Positions 2,281-16,604 of a stretch of 18,486 bases of DNA are shown in pieces (the stretch's first letter is position 1; each line of letters begins with the position of its first letter). Origin of the DNA: Tychonema litorale BBK16 (GTDB lineage: Bacteria > Cyanobacteriota > Cyanobacteriia > Cyanobacteriales > Microcoleaceae). The notes under the pieces are model-generated. The model did no database searches, was not told where the DNA came from, and was given only the letters and a program-made list of their open reading frames with translations. A program made the translations under genes and the position numbers. Location of the stretch: the NCBI RefSeq assembly GCF_021648855.1, contig NZ_JAKJHX010000104.1, forward strand, positions 1 through 18,486, written 5' to 3'.

Positions 2281-3552
2281 ATGAACCCATTAGACAATCC
2301 TACACCCGTTCGACCAGACGCTCAAGCCCGCCGTACACCGCCACCTCCACCGCCCTTGGCAGCGCATCCAGCACCACCTCCAGCGCCTTCTGCACCCGCA
2401 GCCCAGCGACAGCCGGAAGTTCCATCAAATACGATCGAGCAAATGGTCAGAGATGCCCATAGCGTCAGCGCTTCCGACATTCACATTCGAGTCGGCCAAG
2501 TACCTCGATTTCGGATTCGGGGGGTGATGCAACTAGCGATGAATCACGTCAAAGTAACCCCAGAAATTTTTGAACAATACTTAGCAGAAATGTTCTCTCC
2601 TGAACAACGAAAACAATTCGTAAATACCAAAGAATTAGATGCAGCAATTTTTTATCCAGGCTTCGTGCGGTGTCGGGTAAACTGTTTTGATTCTCTCAGT
2701 GGCGGTGCCATAGTATTGCGTTTGATTAATCTGGAAATACCGACTATCGACTCCATGCGATTACCAGAAGTGCTCAAAAGTATCATCCTGCGATCGCAAG
2801 GCTTAATCTTAGTTACAGGGCCGACCGGTTCGGGAAAATCGACAACAGTGGCTGCGATGATTGACCACCTCAATCAGATGGAGCAAAAGCACGTAGTGAC
2901 AATCGAAGACCCGATCGAATTCATTCACCCTTCTAAGAAATGCTTGGTTAGTCAGCGGGAAGTAGGCTTACACACCCACGAATTTGGGCAAGCATTGCGG
3001 GCTGTCTTGCGGGAAGATCCAGATGTCATTCTGATTGGCGAAATGCGCGATCGCGTCACCATCAATACAGCATTACAAGCAGCTCAAACTGGTCACTTAG
3101 TATTAGGAACTCTGCACACACGCAGCGCCATCAATGCTATCAACCGCTTGTTGAATATGTATCCGCCCGAAGAACAGCAGGCGATGCGGATTCAAATTTG
3201 CGACTCTTTAGTAGCAGTAATTGCCCAACTTTTGTTGCCAACTGTTGACAACCGCCGCGTCGCCGTTCACGACATTTTGGTAAATACACCTGCGATGAAT
3301 GATTACTTGATGAAAGGTGCTGATGACGAAGCTTTCCGGTTGATGGAACATGATACTTACGAAGGAATGCAGATTATTAACCAAGCTCTTTATGCACTTG
3401 TACTTGAGGGCAGAGTTACGATCGAAGAAGCAGCAAAAGCTTCCCCCGAAGCGACCGATTTAGACCGTCGCTTGCGGACAGGAGGCTACGATGTTGCCGA
3501 CGCTCGTGGCTTTGAAGGTAGTAAAAAAGAACGCCGCGTTACTTCTAGGTAA
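2281..3552 (+). CDS. pilT: type IV pilus retraction ATPase, PilT family (PilT2-like)
   Basis: A 423-residue GspE/PilT superfamily ATPase that would power pilus retraction at the inner membrane. An N-terminal Pro/Ala-rich tail (about 8-48) precedes a standard N-terminal domain (ASDIHIRVGQVPRFRI). Walker A is GPTGSGKS (180-187), the Asp box VTIEDPIEFIH (206-216), Walker B DPDVILIGEMRD (246-257) and the His box TGHLVLGTLHT (270-280). All catalytic motifs are intact. In place of the AIRNLIRE-type retraction motif of canonical PilT it has AMNDYLMKG (338-346), followed by GMQIINQAL, which aligns with the end of the family. Canonical PilT is about 350-370 residues, so this form is longer. The proline-rich tail and length recall the second cyanobacterial PilT paralogue, which acts in motility and phototaxis direction; that assignment is inference. 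It has no other pilus gene beside it. Confidence 0.88.
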   Translation: MNPLDNPTPVRPDAQARRTPPPPPPLAAHPAPPPAPSAPAAQRQPEVPSNTIEQMVRDAHSVSASDIHIRVGQVPRFRIRGVMQLAMNHVKVTPEIFEQYLAEMFSPEQRKQFVNTKELDAAIFYPGFVRCRVNCFDSLSGGAIVLRLINLEIPTIDSMRLPEVLKSIILRSQGLILVTGPTGSGKSTTVAAMIDHLNQMEQKHVVTIEDPIEFIHPSKKCLVSQREVGLHTHEFGQALRAVLREDPDVILIGEMRDRVTINTALQAAQTGHLVLGTLHTRSAINAINRLLNMYPPEEQQAMRIQICDSLVAVIAQLLLPTVDNRRVAVHDILVNTPAMNDYLMKGADDEAFRLMEHDTYEGMQIINQALYALVLEGRVTIEEAAKASPEATDLDRRLRTGGYDVADARGFEGSKKERRVTSR

Positions 3553-5563: not shown

Positions 5564-6814
5564 TTGGATAGCGTGACTCAATCAGTTAACAAGTTTGGTA
5601 CTATAATTGTGCAAATTAATCACCTAGCGTTCCTATTTATTGATGTAATTCTATTTGCGATCGCCCTAATTCTCCTAATTCCCGTCACAGTTCTATTTCT
5701 AGAATGCACCGCAGCCTTATTATCGGGCCCAAGCAAAACATCCGAAACTAAATCGCCCCGTCCCAAAATAGCAGTTCTAATTCCCGCTTACAACGAAGCA
5801 GCAGGAATTGCAGCCACAATATCCACAATATTGCCACAGCTAACACCAGACGATCGCCTGTTAGTCATTGCAGACAACTGTACCGATGCTACAGCAGAAA
5901 TCGCCCGTAACTGTGGTGCAACTGCGATCGAGCGCCAAGACAACGAACGCAAGGGCAAAGGATATGCCCTAGACTTCGGCCTAGAGTCGATCGCCTCCGA
6001 CCCCCCAGAAGTAGTAATTATGGTTGACGCAGACTGTATCTGTCAGCCATTCGCCTTAGAGACATTAGCCAGAGTTGCAGTTACTTCCTCTCGGCCAGTT
6101 CAAGCAACCTATCTCATGGAACAGCCACCCAATCCTACTCCGAAAGATTCCATTTCCGCCTTAGCATTTCTAGTAAAAAACCTAGTCAGACCCAGCGGAT
6201 TAAAACAATTAGGATTCCCATCATTACTAACAGGAACTGGCATGGCTTTTCCCTGGTCAATCATTCGATCAGTTTCCCTAGCCAGCAGTAATATAGTTGA
6301 AGATATGCAAATGAGTCTCGATTTGGCGATCGCCGGATCTCCCACCGTATTCTGCCCCGAAGCCAGAGTCACTGGGTGTTTACCACAACAGCAAGAAGCA
6401 GCAAAAAGTCAAAGAACCAGATGGGAACACGGGCACATACAGACACTCCTCACCCAAACTCCCCGCCTGACAACAGCATCAGTCCAGCAAAAACGATTTG
6501 ACTTATTTGCGATCGCCCTAGACTTATCCGTCCCTCCCCTTTCGCTGTTAGTCGCCATCTGGCTAGCAGCTTTTGTCGCCTCATTACTAGCAGCAACCCT
6601 CGGAACATCTCCAATTCCCAGCATCTTGTTAGCAGTACAAGGAATACTAATTTTAGTTTCAATTGTCAGCGCTTGGGCTAAATTTGGACGTGCCGATATT
6701 TCCGGTTCCACTCTGTTATCTGTACCCTTTTACATCCTCTGGAAAATCCCTTTATATTTCGGTTTTATCCTCAAGCGACAAACCAAATGGATACGCACAG
6801 AACGAGATGCTTAA
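5564..6814 (+). CDS. family 2 glycosyltransferase, membrane-attached
   Basis: A processive-type GT2 of 416 residues. A long N-terminal hydrophobic segment (about 20-55) precedes the GT-A domain. That domain has AVLIPAYNEAAGI (70-82), the nucleotide-sugar-binding ADNCTDAT, DAD (155-157) for metal and UDP-sugar, TGTGMAF (about 223-229), the catalytic ED (246-247) and QRTRW (283-287, the Q..RW motif). Two or three C-terminal membrane segments follow. These are the marks of cellulose-synthase-like or polysaccharide-extending transferases acting at the cytoplasmic face. The start is uncertain: TTG at 5564 gives the longest form, GTG at 5573 is three codons in, and neither has a strong ribosome site. 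Placement behind a nucleotide-sugar epimerase suggests a shared surface-glycan pathway. It is convergent with the giant kinase gene. Donor and product unknown. Confidence 0.87.
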   Translation: MDSVTQSVNKFGTIIVQINHLAFLFIDVILFAIALILLIPVTVLFLECTAALLSGPSKTSETKSPRPKIAVLIPAYNEAAGIAATISTILPQLTPDDRLLVIADNCTDATAEIARNCGATAIERQDNERKGKGYALDFGLESIASDPPEVVIMVDADCICQPFALETLARVAVTSSRPVQATYLMEQPPNPTPKDSISALAFLVKNLVRPSGLKQLGFPSLLTGTGMAFPWSIIRSVSLASSNIVEDMQMSLDLAIAGSPTVFCPEARVTGCLPQQQEAAKSQRTRWEHGHIQTLLTQTPRLTTASVQQKRFDLFAIALDLSVPPLSLLVAIWLAAFVASLLAATLGTSPIPSILLAVQGILILVSIVSAWAKFGRADISGSTLLSVPFYILWKIPLYFGFILKRQTKWIRTERDA

Positions 6815-6860
6815 TCATATCAATTCCGGTAGCATCTTGATTCGCACTTGTATGAATTTT

Positions 6861-6920
6861 GTAGGGGCGGGTTCACCAATAATATAAGCCTGTAATCTAC
6901 AATATAATAAACCCGCCCTC
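6861..6920. repeat. inverted repeat between convergent genes (TGTAGGGGC family)
   Basis: GGGGCGGGTT (6864-6873) pairs with AACCCGCCCT (6910-6919) across a ~36-base AT-rich loop. It sits between the ends of the glycosyltransferase and kinase genes, where it may act as a terminator for both. Confidence 0.65.
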
Positions 6921-6927
6921 CCGATAC

Positions 6928-9900
6928 TCACTGATGCACCGGAATTTCAATCACAAACTCAGTCCCTTCAGCAGGTGCGGAAAAGCACATTAGCTTCCCC
7001 CCATGTTTGTCTACCACAATCTGATAACTGATACTCAACCCCAAACCAGTACCTTTCCCCACAGCTTTTGTAGTAAAGAAAGGGTCAAATATTCGCGATC
7101 GCACTTCCTCCCTCATCCCAGGGCCATTATCAGCAATATGAATTTTCACAAAACTTGTGTCACATACCTCAGTCCAAATCTCAATTTTTCGTTCACAGAC
7201 TTTAGATAAAGAATTGTCTAGTTCAGCCACTTTATCCTGCCGCCCAACTCCTAACTCCACTGCATCAATTGCATTACTCAAAACATTCATAAATACCTGA
7301 TTTAACCCAGAAGCATAACAAGTTACCTTCGGCAGCTTACCATAGTTTTTAATCACATTAATTCCCGTTCCCTCCCCATTCTTTTTCACCTTATGCTGCA
7401 AAATTAACAGAGTAGAGTCAATCCCAGAATGAATATCCACAGGTTTCATCTCAGCTTCATCAAGCCTTGAGAAATTCCGCAGCGACAACACAATATTGCG
7501 AACGCGATCGACTCCAACCTGCATTGATTCCAGCATTTTAGGCAAATCCTCTTGAATAAAACTGAGGTCAATATCTTCTGTTTTAGCAATAATATCCGAG
7601 GTTGGATTCGGGTAAGACTTTTGGTAAATATCGATCAATTCTAGCAAGTCTAAGCTATAATCGCTAGCATGAAGAACATTGCCATAAATGAAATTAATCG
7701 GATTATTAATTTCGTGAGCAACCCCTGCTACCAACTGCCCCAAAGAAGACATCTTTTCAGTTTGAATTAGTTGAATTTGTGTAGAGCGCAATTCAGACAA
7801 GGTAACTTCCAACTGTGTCGCTTTTCCTCTCAACTCTGCCTCCGACTGTCGCAAAGCATCCTGGACTAATACGCGCTCCGTAATGTCTTGTATAGTCCCA
7901 AATAACTGAATCACCTTACCAGCATCACAAATAGCTTGCGCCTTAACAAAAATATATCTGACACTTTCATCAGGGCGTAGAATTCTCAACTCAAATTCAC
8001 AAGATTTTCCTGACTGAATAATCTGCTCTAATTGCTCTAGCCAAAGCTGTAAGTCATCTGGATGAATCTGCTGTTTATGTTCTAAAACAGTCGGTTCAAG
8101 TAGTTGAGGTGCGCGATCAAAAATTCGGAATACTTCCTCAGACCAAGTTAATTTATTTGCCTCTAAATCAAATTCCCAGTTACCCAAGTGCGCCAGTTTC
8201 TGAGCTTCTTGAAGCTTCATTTCTTTAGTCTTTAACTCCTGCGTGCGCTCTTCTACTTTCACCTCCAGGGTCTGCGAATAATCCTCCAACTCTTCCTTCG
8301 CCACCGACAAATCAGCAACCAGTAACGCATTTTCCAGGGATATCGCCGCTTGCGAGGAAAGTATTTTTAAAACTTCCAACCTAGTGGGAGAGAATGCTTC
8401 CGAAGTTAAATTATTTTCCAGATAAAGAATGCCTACAAGTTTGCTTTGATTCAGAATCGGAAGACAAAGCGCCGATCGCACTTTCTGCCTTTTAATATAG
8501 GAATCCTGTGTAAATAGACCTTCCTTAGTAGCCTCACTTAACACCACATCAGAGTGCGTCCTTTCCACATAATTAATCACCGTTATTGGCAAAACCGACC
8601 CTGGGGCGACTGTCGGACACTGCTCAACCGTAATATCCGAAGACTCCACAGAAGCTGCTGCTTGAATCACCAATTTTCCTGACACGGGCATCAACAGAAA
8701 ACCTTTTTGTGCTCCAGCATTCTCGATCGCAATTTTCATCAACTTTTCCAACAACCTGTCCAGCACAATTTCACTAGCGAGTGCCTGAGATGCTTTCAAA
8801 ACAGTTGTCAAGTCTAATAAACCACTATGACTGCTTATTGAATTAGTATGAGTGCTAATCATAGTTGACTCTGCACCAGGTTTTGCAGCCGATGCAGGAG
8901 GTAAATACATCGGATACTGTGACTCCAAATGTTTGACCTTGGCGGTTGCTCCCCAATGAATATAGCCGTAGTAAGCATCTATCAGATAGATTTGAGATAC
9001 TTTTTTGCGATCGCAAGCCAGATAGAATTCTGCCGCTAATTCGTTTGCTAGCGCTGCTTCGTGAGTGTATTCATGCTCCGAGGCTCCTTTCACCGCGCGA
9101 TCGTAATACATAGCAGCTTTTTCATTTTGTCCCAATACTCGCGCTTTTTCGGCTTCTACCAAATCATATTTGTGCTGATAATTTCCCGGAGAATTCATAG
9201 CCCAATGCTTCATTTTTTTCTGAAGCGAATCCACCTTTTTTAACTGTTTTTTCTGTTCATTTTTTAAAGCTGTAGGATACAAAGCTAACAGCGCTAGGGA
9301 ATAGTAAAGATTGTGGATAGGAATATACATCATCGCCATTGCAGACTCAGAGTAATTTGATGCTGTCATGGCATTTTCAGCAGATTCTGCGTAATTTTTA
9401 AATAGATAATTTAGCCATGATCTAGACAAATATACTACAAATATTGCCAAATTATTTTGACTTTTTTTCAATACTGGCAGCATAGTTTCTTCATTAAATT
9501 GCTCGCCAATCAACAGGCAAGGATTAGCTGTTTTACCTTGTAAATTTAAGACAACTTGCGCTCCCACCCTGCTATGGTTCATCATAAATTCACTCTTATA
9601 ATTCACCAACATTTGAATATATTGACTCTGCTTAGTCTCCACAGAGTCCAGAGATTCGCCACTCAAAAATATATAATTGCTATAAAAACTAGCACAATAA
9701 CAAGCATTGTTGACATCTCCCGTTTCTAACCCGCTCTGAATACCTTCAAGTAAACCAGTAAAACTTGCTCTGCCACCCTCGGACCAGTGACGGATAAAAA
9801 CATTAAAAATTAGTGAGATTTGAGAGTTATACAAGTTGGTCTGAAATCTCTCTAAAAGTGCCTGAGCCATTTGACCGTATCGGTATCCAGAATCCATATC

Positions 9901-12861
9901 TCCTAACACTGCACAGTGGATCGTAGCATAGTTTGCATACCCGACACTAGACAGCGGCGCATTCCCGTATTTAAGAGAAAGAGTAACCATTTTAAATACG
10001 ATCAGTGGGAACATATCGGGTGCTACTACAAAAGCAGCAGGACCCATATTCGTTAAAATCCGTAGAGCCGCAATTTTATTAGCATCAGCCATTGGCGGCA
10101 ACTGGGATAAATCCTCAATCCGTTTATTTCCCACAGCTAATTTTGTCAGTATTAGCCCCATGAAAATCTTGAATTTATTGGGTTTTTGATGGAGATAGAC
10201 TCCCAGCAGTTTCAAAGCTTCGAGGCCTATATCTATCGAAGCTTGGGATTGATTTTGATTGAAGTAGAAAACAACTTTTAGCTCATAAACTTTGACTTTT
10301 TCTAGCAAACTTTTGGCGCGTAATATAATAACCTCTGATAGCTGGAACGCTCGCTCAAAATCAGTATTTATATAGGACAATTCCAGCGCTTCGGCATGGA
10401 GTTCCATGATTAAATCGTAGTGACTCTGCCAAGCTCGATCGGGTAGCAGTTCTATACCTGTATTAAAATATTTGAGTGCTGCTTCATAGGCGGCAGAATT
10501 CTTAGCTTTCTTACCAGCTATGAGATTAAAATTAGCTAGTTCATCCCGCTTGGACTGATTTGTGATGAATTCCACCCCGATATTGAGTTGGTTGACAATA
10601 TCAAAGATATTTTCTGCTATCTCCGATGCCGTAGGGGCGGTGGATGGTGCGTGCCCGCCCTCCAATAACAGATACCCGATTTTTAAGTGAGTTTGTTTTT
10701 TTTGGGAGTCAGGGATGAGAGAATAAGCAGCTTGTTGTACGCGATCGTGCAAAAATCTATAATCAATTGAGCGTTGCATAATTGCAGGATAATTTCGATT
10801 ATTTTGTGAGATAAACATCTCGCCCGTCCGGTATGTTTTAACAATTGCTTCATCAACCAAGGGAATTTTGTAAGCATCGCTCATTGGTAGAATTAAACCA
10901 GCTTGCAGCGCATCCCATAAATCAGCCGCCGTTTCCGAGCCAGATTTTTCCCTAACAATTGCCAAATTTTCTAAACTAAAACAGTTGCCCATACAAGCAG
11001 CTAATTTTAATACTTGCTGCGTCTCCTCCGGCAGTTTTTGAATATTCCGAGCAACTAATTCAACGACACTGTAATCTGTAACGCTAGCGACTTCAATTTC
11101 CCTGATATCCCACTGCCACTCACCAACAGTGAAATCAAAAGCTAACAGTTTTTCTGAATGAATAGTTGAGAGAAGTTGAGTTATAAAAAATGGATTTCCG
11201 CCAGTTTTATTAAAAATTAACTCTGTCAAAGACTTTAATCTTTCTGTTTCATTACCCAAAGTATCCCGCACTAGCTCAGTGACGCTGCTCAACTCCAAAC
11301 ACTGGAGGATCATGTGATGTACCGCCACACCAGCCTGTTGAATCTTTTCGACAGTTTGAACGAAAGGATGAGTCAAATTCACTTCGTTATCTCGATAGGC
11401 TCCTATCAGTAAAAAATATCGGCTATCCAAGTCTGTTACCAGTTCCTGGATTAATTTCAAAGAGGCTGAATCGGCCCACTGCAAATCATCCAGAAATATA
11501 ACTAAGGGGTGTTCTGCTTGGGCAAACACATTCAAAAATTCTTTGAAAAGTCGATGAAAGCAATTTTGAAATTCTGTCGGCCCCAATTGTGGAACAGCAG
11601 GCTGCGAACCAATTATTAGTTCGATAGAAGGGACAACATCAATAATAATTCCACCGCTTTGCCCCAGCTTTGACAACAGCTTTTCTTGCCAAATTGCCAA
11701 CTCCTCTGAGCTGGTTGTTAATAACTGCTGCATCAGTGACTCAAAGGCTTGAGTTATTGCAGCATAAGGAATATCCCTCTTAAACTGGTCAGATTTGCCA
11801 GTAATAAAATAACCGCGTCGCCGTACAATTGGTTTATGAATTTCATTGATAACTGAAGTTTTACCGATGCCTGAGTAACCGCTTACCAAAACCATTTCAC
11901 TTTTTCCAAAGCTGACTCTATCGAAAGCTGCTATTAAATCAGTAATTTCTTTTGTGCGACCATAAAGTTTTTGAGGAATCAAAAATTGACCTGATTTATC
12001 AATTCTCCCCGGAATAAAACTTTCTATTTTGCCAGTAGTTTGTAACTGATGCAGACAATTTTCTAGGTCTGCTTTCAATCCAAAGGCACTTTGATATCGG
12101 TCTTCGGCATTTTTAGCTAATAGTTTCATGACAATGGATGAAACTATCTGTGGAATTTCATTGTTTAGTTGATGAGGAGGAACTGGCATCACCGCAATGT
12201 GACTGTGAATTAATTCTAAGGGGTCGGTGGAGTTAAAAGGTAACTCTCCTGTAAGCATTTCATAAAACGTGATACCTAAAGAATACAAGTCAGTTCGGTA
12301 ATCTAGGTCGCGGTTCATCCGACCAGTTTGCTCTGGGGATATATAGGCGAGAGTGCCTTCTAGTACCGTGATATTGCTATTTTGGTGAACCTCTCTAGAT
12401 AGGCGCGTCGCCAGACTAAAGTCGGTGATTTTTACGTGTTCAAAATTTGGGCTAATGATAATATTGGAGGGTTTTATATCTTTATGAATAATCTGGTTTT
12501 GATGCACTTCTCCGAGAGTTTGAGCTACTTGAATAGCCAGTGGCAAAAATTTGTTAATTTTAATACTTTTACCAGCGAGATGGTGTCGGAGAGATTGACC
12601 TCCGCAATCTTCTAAGATCAGAGCGAAACTGTTTTTATATTTTTCTAAGCTATGGGGTTTGACAATCCCTTCGATTTGGAGATTCGAGCTAATTTTGTAT
12701 TCATGTCTCAAACGGGTAATTTCTTCTAGTGTGGGATATTCACTATTGAGTGTTTTAATGATGACTAACTCTTGATCTGATTCTCTGACTGCGCGATAAA
12801 TGATGGACTTCACACCAAGTTGAATAACTTCTGTGATTTTGTAACCGGGAAGTGCATTCAT
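6928..12861 (-). CDS. giant Ser/Thr kinase - NTPase - GAF - PAS - histidine kinase sensor
   Basis: A 1977-residue multidomain signalling protein of a type common in filamentous cyanobacteria (HstK-like). Order: Ser/Thr kinase domain, residues ~7-270, with Lys36, a degenerate glycine loop, HKDIKPSN (126-133), DFS instead of DFG (147-149) and SPEQTGR. Then an AAA-type NTPase, with Walker [10 protein letters not shown] (328-336) and Walker B DDLQWAD (458-464). Then a long helical TPR-like region (~760-1330), a GAF domain (~1345-1515), a short coiled coil, a PAS domain (~1547-1670), and a histidine kinase with GVAHEINNP (phospho-acceptor His1716), N box [15 protein letters not shown] and GTGLGLSIS. 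No membrane segment is seen, so it is probably cytosolic and senses through GAF/PAS. No receiver domain is present, so its response regulator must be elsewhere. An extra stretch [12 protein letters not shown] (~733-744) is encoded by a repeat palindrome. The gene is divergent from the oxygenase/peptide cluster. Signal unknown. Confidence 0.92.
10631..10662. repeat. GTAGGGGCGG repeat palindrome embedded in kinase ORF
   Basis: GTAGGGGCGG at 10631 and CCCGCCCTCC at 10653-10662 match the two ends of the intergenic element at 6861-6920. Here the element is short, in frame, and codes for about 11 residues ([10 protein letters not shown] region) of the giant kinase between the NTPase and the TPR-like part. 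Confidence 0.6.
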
Positions 12862-13126
12862 GCTTTTATTTTCTGACTAATTGTTGGGTTAATGTCGTGC
12901 TTGATGTCGATCGCACGGTGGACTGACTGTACTTAAGTATTTTTGGCTGCCATTGTACTTTTACAGACATTGAATTTCAAGTAATTACCCTGTTTTTTTC
13001 GAGGTCAGTAGATGAAAAAGGTTTAGAGGGTATCAACTGGCTGAAAACAGCACATCTGGTTGAATCACCCGCTGATATGTGCGGTTTGACACTTTATTTT
13101 ATTGATAATTACATTATTGTAGCAAA

Positions 13127-13157
13127 GTCAATGATGTCGATCGCATATATCATTGAC
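13127..13157. promoter_or_regulatory. operator-like inverted repeat GTCAATGAT-N13-ATCATTGAC
   Basis: Perfect 9-bp arms (13127-13135 and 13149-13157) around a 13-base centre that includes GATCGC. It lies about 200 bp upstream of the oxygenase gene. Arm length and spacing suit a dimeric regulator, but no family can be named. Confidence 0.4.
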
Positions 13158-13254
13158 AAATCCTGATAATTCAAGGTTAAGCTCTATTTTTGAGCCTTGT
13201 CACCAAGAACGAAGGGGAAGCCCTGGCCTGAAAATGCCGGCTTAGACGATCTAG

Positions 13255-13272
13255 ATCACAATTAAATGTGAT
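13255..13272 (+). promoter_or_regulatory. ATCACA-N6-TGTGAT palindrome upstream of TATGAT
   Basis: ATCACA (13255-13260) and TGTGAT (13267-13272) form a palindrome with a 6-base centre. It has CRP/FNR-like half-sites in the reversed order. It is 16 bases upstream of a good -10 box, TATGAT (13289-13294), which has no -35 box. This placement suits an activator-dependent promoter for the oxygenase/peptide cluster. TGTGATAT (13267-13274) also pairs with ATATCACA (13297-13304). The regulator is unknown. Confidence 0.4.
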
Positions 13273-13355
13273 ATAGACAACAAAATAATATGATTGATAT
13301 CACAGGTCTCTAGTGATGCAGTTGCTAGTATCTGTTCATAATCAGGTGCAACACA

Positions 13356-14102
13356 ATGAAAGAAGTCCTAGCATTGATTGAAAAGAAGAAGCAAGAATTT
13401 GCTAAATCTGGGCTATTTGAGTTTATGCGAGACAAAAGTATAGACCCAAGACAACGCCTAGCTTTCGCCCCCTGCCTTGCTCACTTTGCAATGAGTTTTG
13501 GTGAATTGAACCAGTCTATTTTCCGAGAAGAACCAACCAACGATCCTCTTCAGGCAATGGTTAACAATCATACTTACGAAGACGATCATCACTGGTTGTG
13601 GTTTTTGGCCGATATGGAAACACTGGGTATTAATCACAAATCGTTGAATTTCAGCGATGCTTTGAATTTTGTCTGGAGTGAAGAAATAAAAGCTTCACGG
13701 TTGGTAACATATCAAATTTTTCGATACGCTTTTGGAGCCAGTCCGATCGCTAAGCTAGCAATCTTGGAAGCGGTAGAAGCAACGGGTAACGTGTTCTTGT
13801 CAGCGACAGCATCAGTTGCCGAAGAAATCCGATCGACTACTAAAAAGGAGCTTGTTTATTTTGGTCGTTTTCATTTGGATGTGGAAACAGGTCATACTAC
13901 AGGGACGCCGGATGTGGAGCAATCGATCAAAAACATACCACTGACTATTGAAACCCGTCAAGAGGTTTTTGAGATAGTTGAGAATTTGTTTGAAATTTTT
14001 ACGGAACAGATTGATGAGCTTCTGGTTTTTGCAAAAAACCATAGCTTTGACCAACCTTTTATGGAGCCATCCGAGATATTTAATACTTTAAAAGTTGCGT
14101 AG
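13356..14102 (+). CDS. heme-oxygenase-fold (TenA/PqqC/CADD-like) putative metal-dependent oxygenase
   Basis: A 248-residue, all-helical soluble protein. It resembles the iron-containing redox enzyme group with a heme-oxygenase-like fold, whose diiron members hydroxylate, cleave or N-oxygenate amino acids and peptides. Candidate ligands are seen in order: His72/Glu75/His78/His79 in NHTYEDDHHW, Glu138/Glu141 in LEAVEATGN, and HLDVETGH with His173, Glu177 and His180. The HxxxExxH spacing equals the HxxxDxxH of CADD-type diiron enzymes. The start ATG has a fair ribosome site (CAGGTG, seven bases upstream). It is followed 84 bp later by the repeat-peptide gene and then the flavin halogenase-like gene on the same strand, which suggests a modifying enzyme acting on that peptide. 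TenA- or PqqC-like cofactor chemistry is the main alternative. Fold call reasonably good; reaction unknown. Confidence 0.65.
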   Translation: MKEVLALIEKKKQEFAKSGLFEFMRDKSIDPRQRLAFAPCLAHFAMSFGELNQSIFREEPTNDPLQAMVNNHTYEDDHHWLWFLADMETLGINHKSLNFSDALNFVWSEEIKASRLVTYQIFRYAFGASPIAKLAILEAVEATGNVFLSATASVAEEIRSTTKKELVYFGRFHLDVETGHTTGTPDVEQSIKNIPLTIETRQEVFEIVENLFEIFTEQIDELLVFAKNHSFDQPFMEPSEIFNTLKVA

Positions 14103-14123
14103 TTTACGAGATGTAAACTTTTT
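14101..14123 (+). terminator. weak hairpin plus T run after the oxygenase gene
   Basis: AGTTTAC (14101-14107) pairs with GTAAACT (14113-14119), followed by TTTT. The stem overlaps the TAG stop codon and is AT-rich. It may partially terminate, giving the repeat-peptide gene a separate or attenuated transcript. A TAGAAT (14147-14152) could be its -10 box, with no good -35. Confidence 0.35.
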
Positions 14124-14173
14124 AACTTTTAGAACCAGGTAAAGCTTAGAATTAGACGAAGTTCATTACTTAG

Positions 14174-14179
14174 AAGGAG
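14174..14179 (+). promoter_or_regulatory. strong ribosome-binding site of the repeat-peptide gene
   Basis: AAGGAG with a seven-base spacer to the ATG at 14187 is the best translation signal in the cluster. It shows that the short repeat ORF is meant to be translated in this frame, probably at a high rate. Confidence 0.8.
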
Positions 14180-14186
14180 ACGCATC

Positions 14187-14405
14187 ATGTCACAATCTAA
14201 CAGTAATTCTGCAACTGCGACTGAGAATTTAGATATCGCTCATACTTGGACTGAGAATCTGGATATCGCTCATACTTGGACTGAGAATTTGGATATCGCT
14301 CATACTTGGACTGAGAATTTGGATATTGCTCATACTTGGACTGAGAATTTGGATATTGCTCAGAGTTTTCATCTAGCTGAAGATGAGAAACTAGCGGTCG
14401 GATAA
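14187..14405 (+). CDS. tandem-repeat peptide, candidate multi-core RiPP precursor
   Basis: A 72-residue peptide. A short Ser/Asn-rich start (MSQSNSNSATA, 1-11) is followed by four exact copies of TENLDIAHTW (12-51), a fifth diverged copy TENLDIAQSF (52-61), and the tail HLAEDEKLAVG (62-72). It has no signal peptide, no membrane segment and no Cys. At DNA level units 1-4 differ only at Leu codons (TTA, CTG, TTG) and one Ile codon (ATC/ATT), all silent; the opposite-strand frame would change residues. The peptide sequence therefore appears to be kept by selection. It sits between a putative diiron oxygenase and a flavin halogenase-like enzyme, the layout of a peptide substrate with its modifying enzymes. 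Trp21, 31, 41 and 51 (Phe in the last copy) or the Asp/Asn/His residues could be modified. I do not recognise the family. The RiPP role is inference; a repeat-containing binding or structural peptide is the alternative. The gene ends immediately before a MITE-like insertion. Confidence 0.7.
   Translation: MSQSNSNSATATENLDIAHTWTENLDIAHTWTENLDIAHTWTENLDIAHTWTENLDIAQSFHLAEDEKLAVG
14220..14369 (+). repeat. five in-frame 30-bp tandem repeats
   Basis: Units at 14220, 14250, 14280, 14310 and 14340, each 30 bp and starting ACTGAGAAT. Units 1-4 differ by silent changes only. Unit 5 ends CAGAGTTTT in place of CATACTTGG. The period is an exact multiple of three, so unit number can expand or contract without loss of frame. 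Confidence 0.95.
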
Positions 14406-14536
14406 AACTGAGATATTGCACCAATGTAAATAAGTCTTTTATGAACGGGCATCTTGCCCGTTCCACAAGAGAGTTTATTTATTGTGGAACGGGCATCTTG
14501 CCTGTTCCTGACAATGGTGCAATATTTCAGATAAAA
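14402..14536. mobile_element. MITE-like element (123 bp) with 6-bp target duplication
   Basis: Terminal inverted repeats of 20 bp (14408-14427 and 14511-14530, two mismatches; the left one starts CTGAGATATTGCACC) are bounded on both sides by ATAAAA (14402-14407 and 14531-14536). Inside are two copies of GAACGGGCATCTTGCC that pair with each other in inverse orientation, so the whole element can fold as one long hairpin. It carries no gene, so a transposase elsewhere would have moved it. The left ATAAAA includes the TAA stop of the repeat-peptide gene, so the insertion left the coding sequence intact. In RNA it would form a strong hairpin between peptide and flavoenzyme genes. Confidence 0.75.
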
Positions 14537-14602
14537 CCTATTGCAAATAACTATTTAGCCTTGGAATTAGCGAGGCTGAATAGCTTTATATTTGTCTCGT
14601 AA

Positions 14603-16345
14603 ATGTCCAAATTTAGCATCTACTATCCCGAATTGCATATGAGCCATTATGACGTTGTGATTGTGGGCGGAGGCCCTGCTGGTACTACTGCTGGGACTCT
14701 GCTCAAGAAATACAATCCAAATCTGAGCGTGCTAATTGTAGAGAAAGAAAAGTTTCCTCGCGATCATGTTGGGGAAAGCCAATTACCTCAAATTAGTGAT
14801 GTGCTTCAAGAAATGGGATGCTGGGATAAAGTAGAAGCAGCGGACTTCCCGATTAAAATTGGTGCTACCTATCGCTGGGGAACCGATCCAAATCCTTGGG
14901 ATTTTAATTTTATTAACCCTGAACGGTTTCAAAATGAGCTGCGTCCTGCTAAATTTGAGGGACAAAGACGGCAAACTGCTTTCCAGGTCGATCGCGCAAA
15001 GTATGATGACATTCTGCTAAGACACGCCGAAGAAATGGGATGTGTGGTCAGAGAAGAAACTGCGGTTGTTAAAGTAGATACAGAGGGCGATCGCATTATT
15101 GCTCTTCACTTGCGATCGCAGGAACAAATCACAGCCCGTTACTACATCGACGCTTCTGGCCACATCGGCGTACTGCGCCGAGCTTTGGGAGTAGAAACAC
15201 ACTGTCCGACACGACTACAAAATATCGCTATCTGGGACTATTGGACAAACGCTGAATGGGCTGAGTGTATTGGGGTGGGTGGCACTCGCGTACAGGTAAT
15301 GAGCTTGAGTCACGGATGGATTTGGTTCATTCCCTTGGGGCCAACTCGCACCAGCATCGGCTTCATTTGCCCTGCGGAACATTACAAGGAAATGAAAAAG
15401 CGACCAGAGGAAATATATACCGAAGCGCTAAATAGCGAACCTCGCATCAGCAAGTTAATCGCTAATGCTACCAGTACGGGCAATATTGAAACCACAAAAG
15501 ACTGGTCATTTTTGTCTGAAAAAACAGTAGGAGAAAACTGGTTTTTGGTCGGAGAAGCTGCGGGCTTTGCTGACCCAATTTTAGCGGCTGGCATGACTTT
15601 GGCTCACACAGGTGCGCGGGAATTAGCTTACACGATTTTGGCGTTAGAGCAAGAGACAAATGATGCTCAATGGCTCAAAACTCAGTATGATGAGAATCAG
15701 CGTCGCCGAGTTAAACAGCACATTCGTTTCGCCGATTATTGGTATGCTGCGAATGGTCAATTCACCGATTTACAAGAGTATTCAAGTGAAATTGCGCGAG
15801 ATTCTGGATTAAATTTAAGCCCCGAAAAAGCTTTTCAGTGGTTAGCTCAAGGTGGATTTACTAATGATATTTTGGGTCAAGCTGTGATTGCTGGAGTTGA
15901 TTTGACTTCGATCAAGCAGGTGATTCAGCGCTTTTCACAGGAGGAGGTTCCTTGGCTACTTTCTGCCTACAATGTGTTTCAGCTAGATTTATTGGATGCG
16001 GAGATTGAGTTTGTAGCTGTTTATGATGCTGGTCAAATTAAAAAGATTAAGTGTTATGTAAAGAATGGTCAGCGGTTGCCTGCTACAGGATTATATGGTT
16101 TGCTGATTGAGATTTTGAACCGTACTGAGTGCATTGAACAAATTTATCGGCAGTTGGTGTTAGTGTTAAAAGAGCGTTTTTCTGTGCAACACGCTCGTGT
16201 AGTTCTTCATCAAGCCCTTGGTTGTTTGGAGGTGATGGTGAGTTCTGGTATTGTCAAGGCAATGTTGAACCCGGATTTGTCTAAGTTGAATATTTCTATT
16301 CCGATGGAAGGTGAGTTAATTCATACTCACAGAGATGCGAATTAA
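14603..16345 (+). CDS. flavin-dependent halogenase-like oxidoreductase with C-terminal winged-helix-like extension
   Basis: A 580-residue FAD enzyme of the tryptophan/phenol halogenase superfamily. GGGPAG (22-27) binds FAD. FPRDHVGES (51-59) is typical of flavin halogenases. Lys85 in IKIGATYRWG is at the catalytic lysine position. GWIWFIP (238-244) matches the halogenase signature GWxWxIP. GEAAGFADP (317-325) is the second FAD motif. In the FxxPxxSxG motif used to separate halogenases from monooxygenases, Ser is replaced by Ala (F322..P325..A328.G330), so halogenation is not assured. Residues ~466-552 (two strands, then RLPATGLYGLL...IEQIYRQL...LHQALGCLEVMVSSGIV) recall the PqqD/RRE winged-helix plan that binds RiPP leader peptides. 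M13 (ATG at 14639) is an equally good start, since GGGPAG normally lies near residue 10. It is downstream of the repeat-peptide gene and probably acts on it. Confidence 0.82.
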   Translation: MSKFSIYYPELHMSHYDVVIVGGGPAGTTAGTLLKKYNPNLSVLIVEKEKFPRDHVGESQLPQISDVLQEMGCWDKVEAADFPIKIGATYRWGTDPNPWDFNFINPERFQNELRPAKFEGQRRQTAFQVDRAKYDDILLRHAEEMGCVVREETAVVKVDTEGDRIIALHLRSQEQITARYYIDASGHIGVLRRALGVETHCPTRLQNIAIWDYWTNAEWAECIGVGGTRVQVMSLSHGWIWFIPLGPTRTSIGFICPAEHYKEMKKRPEEIYTEALNSEPRISKLIANATSTGNIETTKDWSFLSEKTVGENWFLVGEAAGFADPILAAGMTLAHTGARELAYTILALEQETNDAQWLKTQYDENQRRRVKQHIRFADYWYAANGQFTDLQEYSSEIARDSGLNLSPEKAFQWLAQGGFTNDILGQAVIAGVDLTSIKQVIQRFSQEEVPWLLSAYNVFQLDLLDAEIEFVAVYDAGQIKKIKCYVKNGQRLPATGLYGLLIEILNRTECIEQIYRQLVLVLKERFSVQHARVVLHQALGCLEVMVSSGIVKAMLNPDLSKLNISIPMEGELIHTHRDAN

Positions 16346-16388
16346 GCGGCTACAAGAAAGCTTGGCTTAAAACCATTAAACCGTTTTT

Positions 16389-16421
16389 AGCTCCCCGACT
16401 TCTTTAAGAAGTCGGGGAGCT
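16389..16421. terminator. strong hairpin after the flavoenzyme gene
   Basis: A 16-bp near-perfect stem (AGCTCCCCGACTTCTT and its complement) with a one-base centre, 43 bases after the stop codon. No T run follows on the plus strand. It is a common cyanobacterial repeat type that may serve to end the cluster transcript. Confidence 0.6.
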
Positions 16422-16457
16422 GGTTATTGGTTATTCTAAATACTAAGATTATTCAAA

Positions 16458-16501: not shown

Positions 16502-16503
16502 AA

Positions 16504-16575
16504 CTCCCCGGGTAGGATTTGAACCTACGACCAATCGGTTAACAGCCGACCGCTCTACCACTGAGCTACCGAGGA
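16504..16575 (-). tRNA. tRNA-Asn (anticodon GUU)
   Basis: A 72-base cloverleaf. Acceptor TCCTCGG pairs with CCGGGGA (one G-U pair) and the discriminator is G. The D stem is GCTC/GAGC. The anticodon arm is GTCGG-CTGTTAA-CCGAT with anticodon GTT. The T arm is GTAGG-TTCAAAT-CCTAC. CCA is not encoded, as usual in cyanobacteria. A strong hairpin follows directly downstream. Confidence 0.97.
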
Positions 16576-16604
16576 ATGGGGCTTTTTGCTTGCCACATTT
16601 ACTA

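Follow-up and report, generated by a model that had tools for sequence, protein, structure and literature searches.

A repeat peptide encoded with a halogenase-like flavoprotein and an AetD/SktA-like diiron enzyme in Tychonema litorale points to a route from ribosomal peptide to tryptophan products

Three consecutive plus-strand genes on a stretch of DNA from Tychonema litorale BBK16 (contig NZ_JAKJHX010000104.1; all 18,486 nucleotides analysed are termed the window) point to an undescribed route from a ribosomal peptide to tryptophan (Trp) products. They encode a heme-oxygenase-fold diiron enzyme related to AetD and SktA, a short peptide of tandem units, and a flavin-dependent halogenase-like enzyme. 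An earlier note, made from the sequence alone, had proposed that this trio is akin to systems for ribosomally synthesized and post-translationally modified peptides (RiPPs). This proposal, with Trp as the obvious target, is supported by three observations. The gene order is the same in all 15 cassettes read, each having the gene-encoded peptide adjoining modifying enzymes that is expected of a RiPP. Tandem copies of the motif HTWTEN/K were found only in genomes that carry both enzymes, which is the outcome of the co-occurrence check suggested in that note. In addition, the C-terminal domain of the flavoprotein has a predicted fold that resembles RiPP recognition elements, which many but not all RiPP systems have in a modifying enzyme. 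The three genes and the strong ribosome-binding site described earlier were all found, the latter right before the ATG of the peptide gene. Features of the window are as follows.

13356..14102, plus strand: AetD/SktA-like heme-oxygenase-fold diiron enzyme, 248 amino acids (phmmer against AetD 8ji2; conserved ligand columns)
14175..14180, plus strand: ribosome-binding site AAGGAG of the repeat-peptide gene (read from the sequence)
14187..14405, plus strand: repeat peptide, 72 amino acids, likely substrate of the flavoprotein (open reading frame; codon-level selection; gene order in 15 cassettes)
14219..14362, plus strand: 30-base tandem array encoding TENLDIAHTW units, four with HTW and one without (Tandem Repeats Finder)
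14603..16345, plus strand: CmlS/CndH-type flavin-dependent halogenase-like enzyme, 580 amino acids (profile and structure-database matches)
15944..16318, plus strand: C-terminal part of the flavoprotein (residues 448-572), a domain predicted to fold like RiPP recognition elements
6928..12861, minus strand: hybrid Ser/Thr-histidine kinase, 1977 amino acids, with Pkinase, AAA_16, GAF, PAS, HisKA and HATPase domains (Pfam)
6814..16454, no strand assigned: block of kinase plus trio, missing between a glycosyltransferase gene and tRNA-Asn in seven relatives (genome comparison)

The repeat peptide and the flavoprotein

The tandem array consists of 4.8 copies of a 30-base unit with 96% matches, which is far above chance, and a pattern search places the starts of HTWTEN at 14241, 14271, 14301 and 14331. 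The peptide had been described as having five TENLDIAHTW-type units. TENLDIA is indeed present five times, but HTW is found in only four units, as the last reads TENLDIAQSF and has no Trp. The 15 distinct peptides from 15 genomes have between 3 and 7 HTW motifs each, 73 in total. HTWTE is found in all 72 that have a full unit after them; the other is the final HTW of the Calothrix peptide (L083), which is cut by the end of the open reading frame. In the 56 units that have the next unit ten residues on, the residues at positions 1-5 (H, T, W, T, E) and 7 (L) are invariant; D, E or N is found at position 8, and either I or F at position 9.

Adjacent 30-base units of the 15 peptides show 84 differences at the third codon position and 17 at the first, with none at the second, a pattern that rules out a non-coding repeat. 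Units compared within one peptide display a pS of 0.357 versus a pN of 0.0156. From this codon-level selection between units, the repeat peptide is evidently a real protein, made as such and maintained under selection.

The HTWTEN/K pattern matches 16 of 388 order-level genomes, and 13 of these have at least three tandem copies, every one together with the trio. Single matches (G006, G150 and G538) are at chance level, since a reversed control pattern gives single matches in 10 genomes. The cassette of G150 has units that read HTWTET and is therefore missed by the pattern. In the genus of the window, nine of 29 genomes have an AetD-like orthologue of at least 69% identity; the flavoprotein is found in those nine among the 28 genomes searched, always with the peptide between both enzymes, and in one (G011) it is divided between two contigs. 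Phylum-wide, the flavoprotein appears at E 1e-150 or better in six of 386 genomes, i.e., the window's own and five of family code f6 (Nostocaceae-type). All five carry the same trio, as does the Calothrix locus. Chance neighbours are ruled out, as the trio recurs at different genomic sites and on several branches of the AetD-like family. Short open reading frames coding for repeats were sought within 5 kb of 59 AetD-like genes and around four Okeania-type flavoprotein genes, and 15 loci matched. Eight are cassette loci; repeat frames at the others (L061, L079, L080, L087, L089, L140 and L141) look like low-complexity DNA and were rejected as such peptides. Neither the repeat-unit sequences nor systems of such make-up were found in the literature searched, most subscription journals being outside that search. 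Between the peptide and flavoprotein genes, at 14441-14515, a stretch resembling GGAACGGGCATCTTGCC is found as an inverted copy, possibly a mobile repeat.

The earlier assignment of the third gene to a flavin halogenase-like enzyme is confirmed by a match to Trp_halogenase (PF04820) of 136.9 bits (cut-off 21), a GWIWFIP motif and an FPIK lysine. A catalytic lysine and the WxWxIP motif are defining features of flavin-dependent halogenases, and K85, W239, W241, I243 and P244 are without variation in 37 homologues. The 580-residue protein has both the homology and the fold of this enzyme class, with CndH, FasV and CmlS as its closest solved matches. Its C-terminal domain has no convincing match in Pfam or PDB sequence searches. 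Relatives of the flavoprotein also occur in Planctomycetota and Gammaproteobacteria; searches of plasmids yielded no match at E 1e-60, and searches of viral contigs no relative.

Four copies at 69-71% identity are present in two Okeania-type genomes (genus code g9; L140-L143), where genome searches found no AetD-like gene and no HTWTEN/K match. All four directly follow a gene for an exported protein whose end is PEP-CTERM-like (read by eye), and this position behind exported proteins fits an enzyme acting on proteins. Upstream at L141 there is another PEP-CTERM-like exported protein, together with a flavoprotein fragment. In three Nostocaceae-type cassettes a flavin monooxygenase is encoded downstream; kinship with AetF was not upheld, as AetF is not named among 50 PDB matches at E 1e-10 or better to the one protein queried.

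Known systems resemble the cassette in part. MibH, SrpI, MppI and ChlH are the halogenases named in PMC12715798 as acting on Trp in peptides; like the window system, they combine the fold of a flavin-dependent halogenase with a peptide that contains Trp, but the closest solved matches of the window flavoprotein are CndH, FasV and CmlS. SrpI is described as being without a recognition element (PMC10858898), whereas the window flavoprotein may have one fused. Microviridin-type multi-core precursors also have several near-identical units per ribosomal peptide (PMC5934393), but are acted upon by other enzymes at another target residue. In the ammosamide pathway, as here, a peptide bears a Trp destined for a small product and a flavin halogenase is encoded in the cluster. 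There, however, a ligase adds Trp to the C-terminus and chlorination occurs after release, whereas here Trp is encoded in the repeats and no ligase was seen.

The diiron enzyme

The 248-residue enzyme matches AetD (8ji2) over residues 1-232 with a phmmer E of 2.6e-50, and Pfam gives only a weak match to PF14518. The HxxxExxH signature noted earlier as that of a heme-oxygenase-fold protein corresponds to H173, E177 and H180. With D76, H79 and E141, all six of the 3-His/3-carboxylate iron ligands of AetD are kept, and F44, F48 and Y168 are also retained by position. At two further positions the window enzyme has the residues reported for SktA (T142 and F214), with T143 in place of A142 of AetD and F215 in place of S214, whereas V140 differs from both AetD (M139) and SktA (T139). 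A further difference from both is that its gene lies together with those of a CmlS-type flavoprotein and a repeat peptide.

AetD converts 5,7-dibromo-Trp to an indole nitrile, with Trp bound to iron (Fe1) through its free amine and carboxylate (PMC11611611). Unbrominated Trp is also reported as a substrate (PMC10654658). SktA is described as converting 5-bromo-Trp to 5-bromoskatole (PMC13108848), and the title of the SktA paper, as cited there, adds cyanide as a product. Because of the homology to AetD and SktA and the pocket residues, the window enzyme is expected to act on free Trp, or on halo-Trp without a 7-bromine.

Alignment columns that set cassette enzymes apart from 58 others are 125, 193 and 213 only, in a comparison that excludes five sequences left out of the AetD-like tree and 12 with lost ligands. 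None of the three coincides with any of the 13 ligand and pocket columns, and so the alignment gives no sign that the cassette enzymes were reshaped around a peptide. Many Microcoleus genomes (L018-L028, L031, near position 1501) have a second AetD-like paralogue, 37-41% identical to the window enzyme, which is a possible pseudoenzyme, several of its iron ligands having been lost.

Proposed pathway and alternatives

The firmest inference, and a probable one, is that the repeat peptide is the substrate of the flavoprotein. The flavoprotein would bind the peptide, probably via its C-terminal recognition-element-like domain, and modify the Trp indole of every HTWTE unit, with halogenation as the most likely reaction. 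General proteolysis would then free Trp or halo-Trp. A dedicated peptidase or exporter is common in RiPP systems, though not universal. In line with the earlier statement that the window has no such gene, neither was recognised by Pfam among nine window open reading frames (7-294, 1024-2205 and 2281-3552 lying outside the scan), nor spotted by eye among the cassette-neighbourhood genes listed. The AetD/SktA-like enzyme would most likely act on the freed amino acid and give a small indole of the skatole or nitrile type, as its homology and pocket residues suggest, and sensing or control of the pathway probably falls to the hybrid kinase, as suggested by linkage. As a whole chain of steps, a RiPP-like cassette yielding modified Trp is a tentative proposal, with chances slightly short of even.

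A more elaborate version is doubtful. Here the peptide would be a disposable multi-copy carrier of Trp, in which each unit has its own recognition motif (ENLDI, reminiscent of the FNLD box of lantibiotic leaders) and target (HTWT). The flavoprotein would halogenate Trp in every unit and the peptide would then be broken down. The AetD-like enzyme would turn the halo-Trp into a halo-skatole or indole nitrile, with release of cyanide if the enzyme is SktA-like, and the signal would be read by the kinase.

Perhaps the peptide is not a substrate but a scaffold or regulator, whose short repeated motifs gather or control two enzymes that both use free Trp. Amm3 is a precedent and the unit number, which ranges from 3 to 7, is compatible with this. 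Free-Trp chemistry does exist in the AetD-like family, since 15 of 59 loci have a PrnA-type halogenase where there is no peptide. However, W is retained in every full unit, which a scaffold does not need, and in the loci read the peptide accompanies the CmlS-type enzyme and not the PrnA type. This explanation is unlikely.

The model of the earlier note, that both enzymes act on Trp within the peptide to give a multi-unit modified peptide, is less likely still. Linkage of all three genes favours it, as does the citing of certain diiron superfamily members as modifiers of ribosomal peptides (PMC13108848). Against it, AetD anchors Trp on Fe1 by the free amine and carboxylate (PMC11611611), and the cassette enzymes, which keep these residues, resemble their peptide-free relatives in the 13 ligand and pocket columns. 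Hydroxylation of peptide Trp without halogenation, as by QhpG for a tryptophylquinone cofactor, is quite improbable. QhpG and LodB are related flavoproteins that target peptidyl Trp in making quinone cofactors, but the window protein scores below the curated cut-offs of both NCBIfam maturase models (143.5 bits against a cut-off of 240, and 112.7 bits against 400).

If the preferred pathway, with release of Trp from a modified peptide, is correct, it would link the modification of ribosomal peptides to the formation of nitrile or skatole from Trp by diiron enzymes, a combination not found in the literature searched. The four peptide-Trp halogenases named in PMC12715798 would be joined by a CmlS-type enzyme that has its own peptide-binding domain, and the precursor would serve as a test case for peptides in which both recognition and core motifs are repeated.

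Relatives, evolution and the linked kinase

Fifty-nine AetD-like loci in named genomes, some on short contigs, were found through two sequence patterns. Flavoprotein and peptide are present at eight, and no such peptide was seen at the other 51 within the DNA examined. The earlier note held that either enzyme without a repeat peptide would refute the proposal. Such cases exist for each enzyme alone (the 51 AetD-like loci and the four Okeania-type flavoprotein copies), but not for the trio. A second-type flavin monooxygenase is found at 15 of the 59 loci. All three SktA-type pocket residues (T140, T143 and F215, window numbering) are present in nine of the 15 AetD-like enzymes that adjoin a PrnA-type halogenase (L040, L041, L043, L044, L047, L048, L056, L065 and L090), which suggests bromoskatole-type pathways at these loci.

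In a tree of 84 AetD-like proteins, 14 cassette members fall on four branches: Microcoleus (eight), Nostocaceae-type (four), Calothrix (one) and G150 (one, on a long branch of unsure placement). The tree was built by a quick method with no bootstrap and omits five of 89 sequences, four truncated and one a full-length cassette member (L139, of G011). Four changes of cassette state are needed, and at least three are forced by well-supported branches, which suggests repeated assembly of the cassette. The cassette-free genome G014 has short AetD-like fragments, one with 78% identity over residues 1-41; therefore either loss occurs as well as gain, or the assembly is incomplete.

Similar hybrid kinases are found at 50 of the 59 loci, with or without halogenases. 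Among loci with at least 9 kb on either side, 34 of 38 have such a kinase. The window's own genome has about eight of this type in 5.27 Mb (read from search rows). A FastTree phylogeny of 61 kinases has one supported branch that unites 30 of 41 linked non-cassette kinases with four of 14 cassette kinases and none of six own-genome paralogues; ten Microcoleus cassette kinases are on another branch, and 11 linked kinases are outside both. In seven of the 20 cassette-free genus members, those that were resolved, the glycosyltransferase gene found left of the kinase in the window is 96-762 bases from the tRNA-Asn side, and the 6814-16454 block is therefore absent. Kinase and trio are together at a different site in two cassette genomes (G034 and G036). 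Kinase and trio appear to move as one. The kinase may be a sensor of an indole signal, and if the proposed pathway is correct, its linkage makes an AetD-like role outside toxin biosynthesis directly testable.

The tRNA-Asn gene of the window (16503-16576) is intron-free, and a group I intron lies within that of two cassette-free relatives (L174, 2220-2488; L177, 1059-1327). At the contig end (18349-18486) there are two arrays of 7-base repeats, GTTCACT and CAATGCC.
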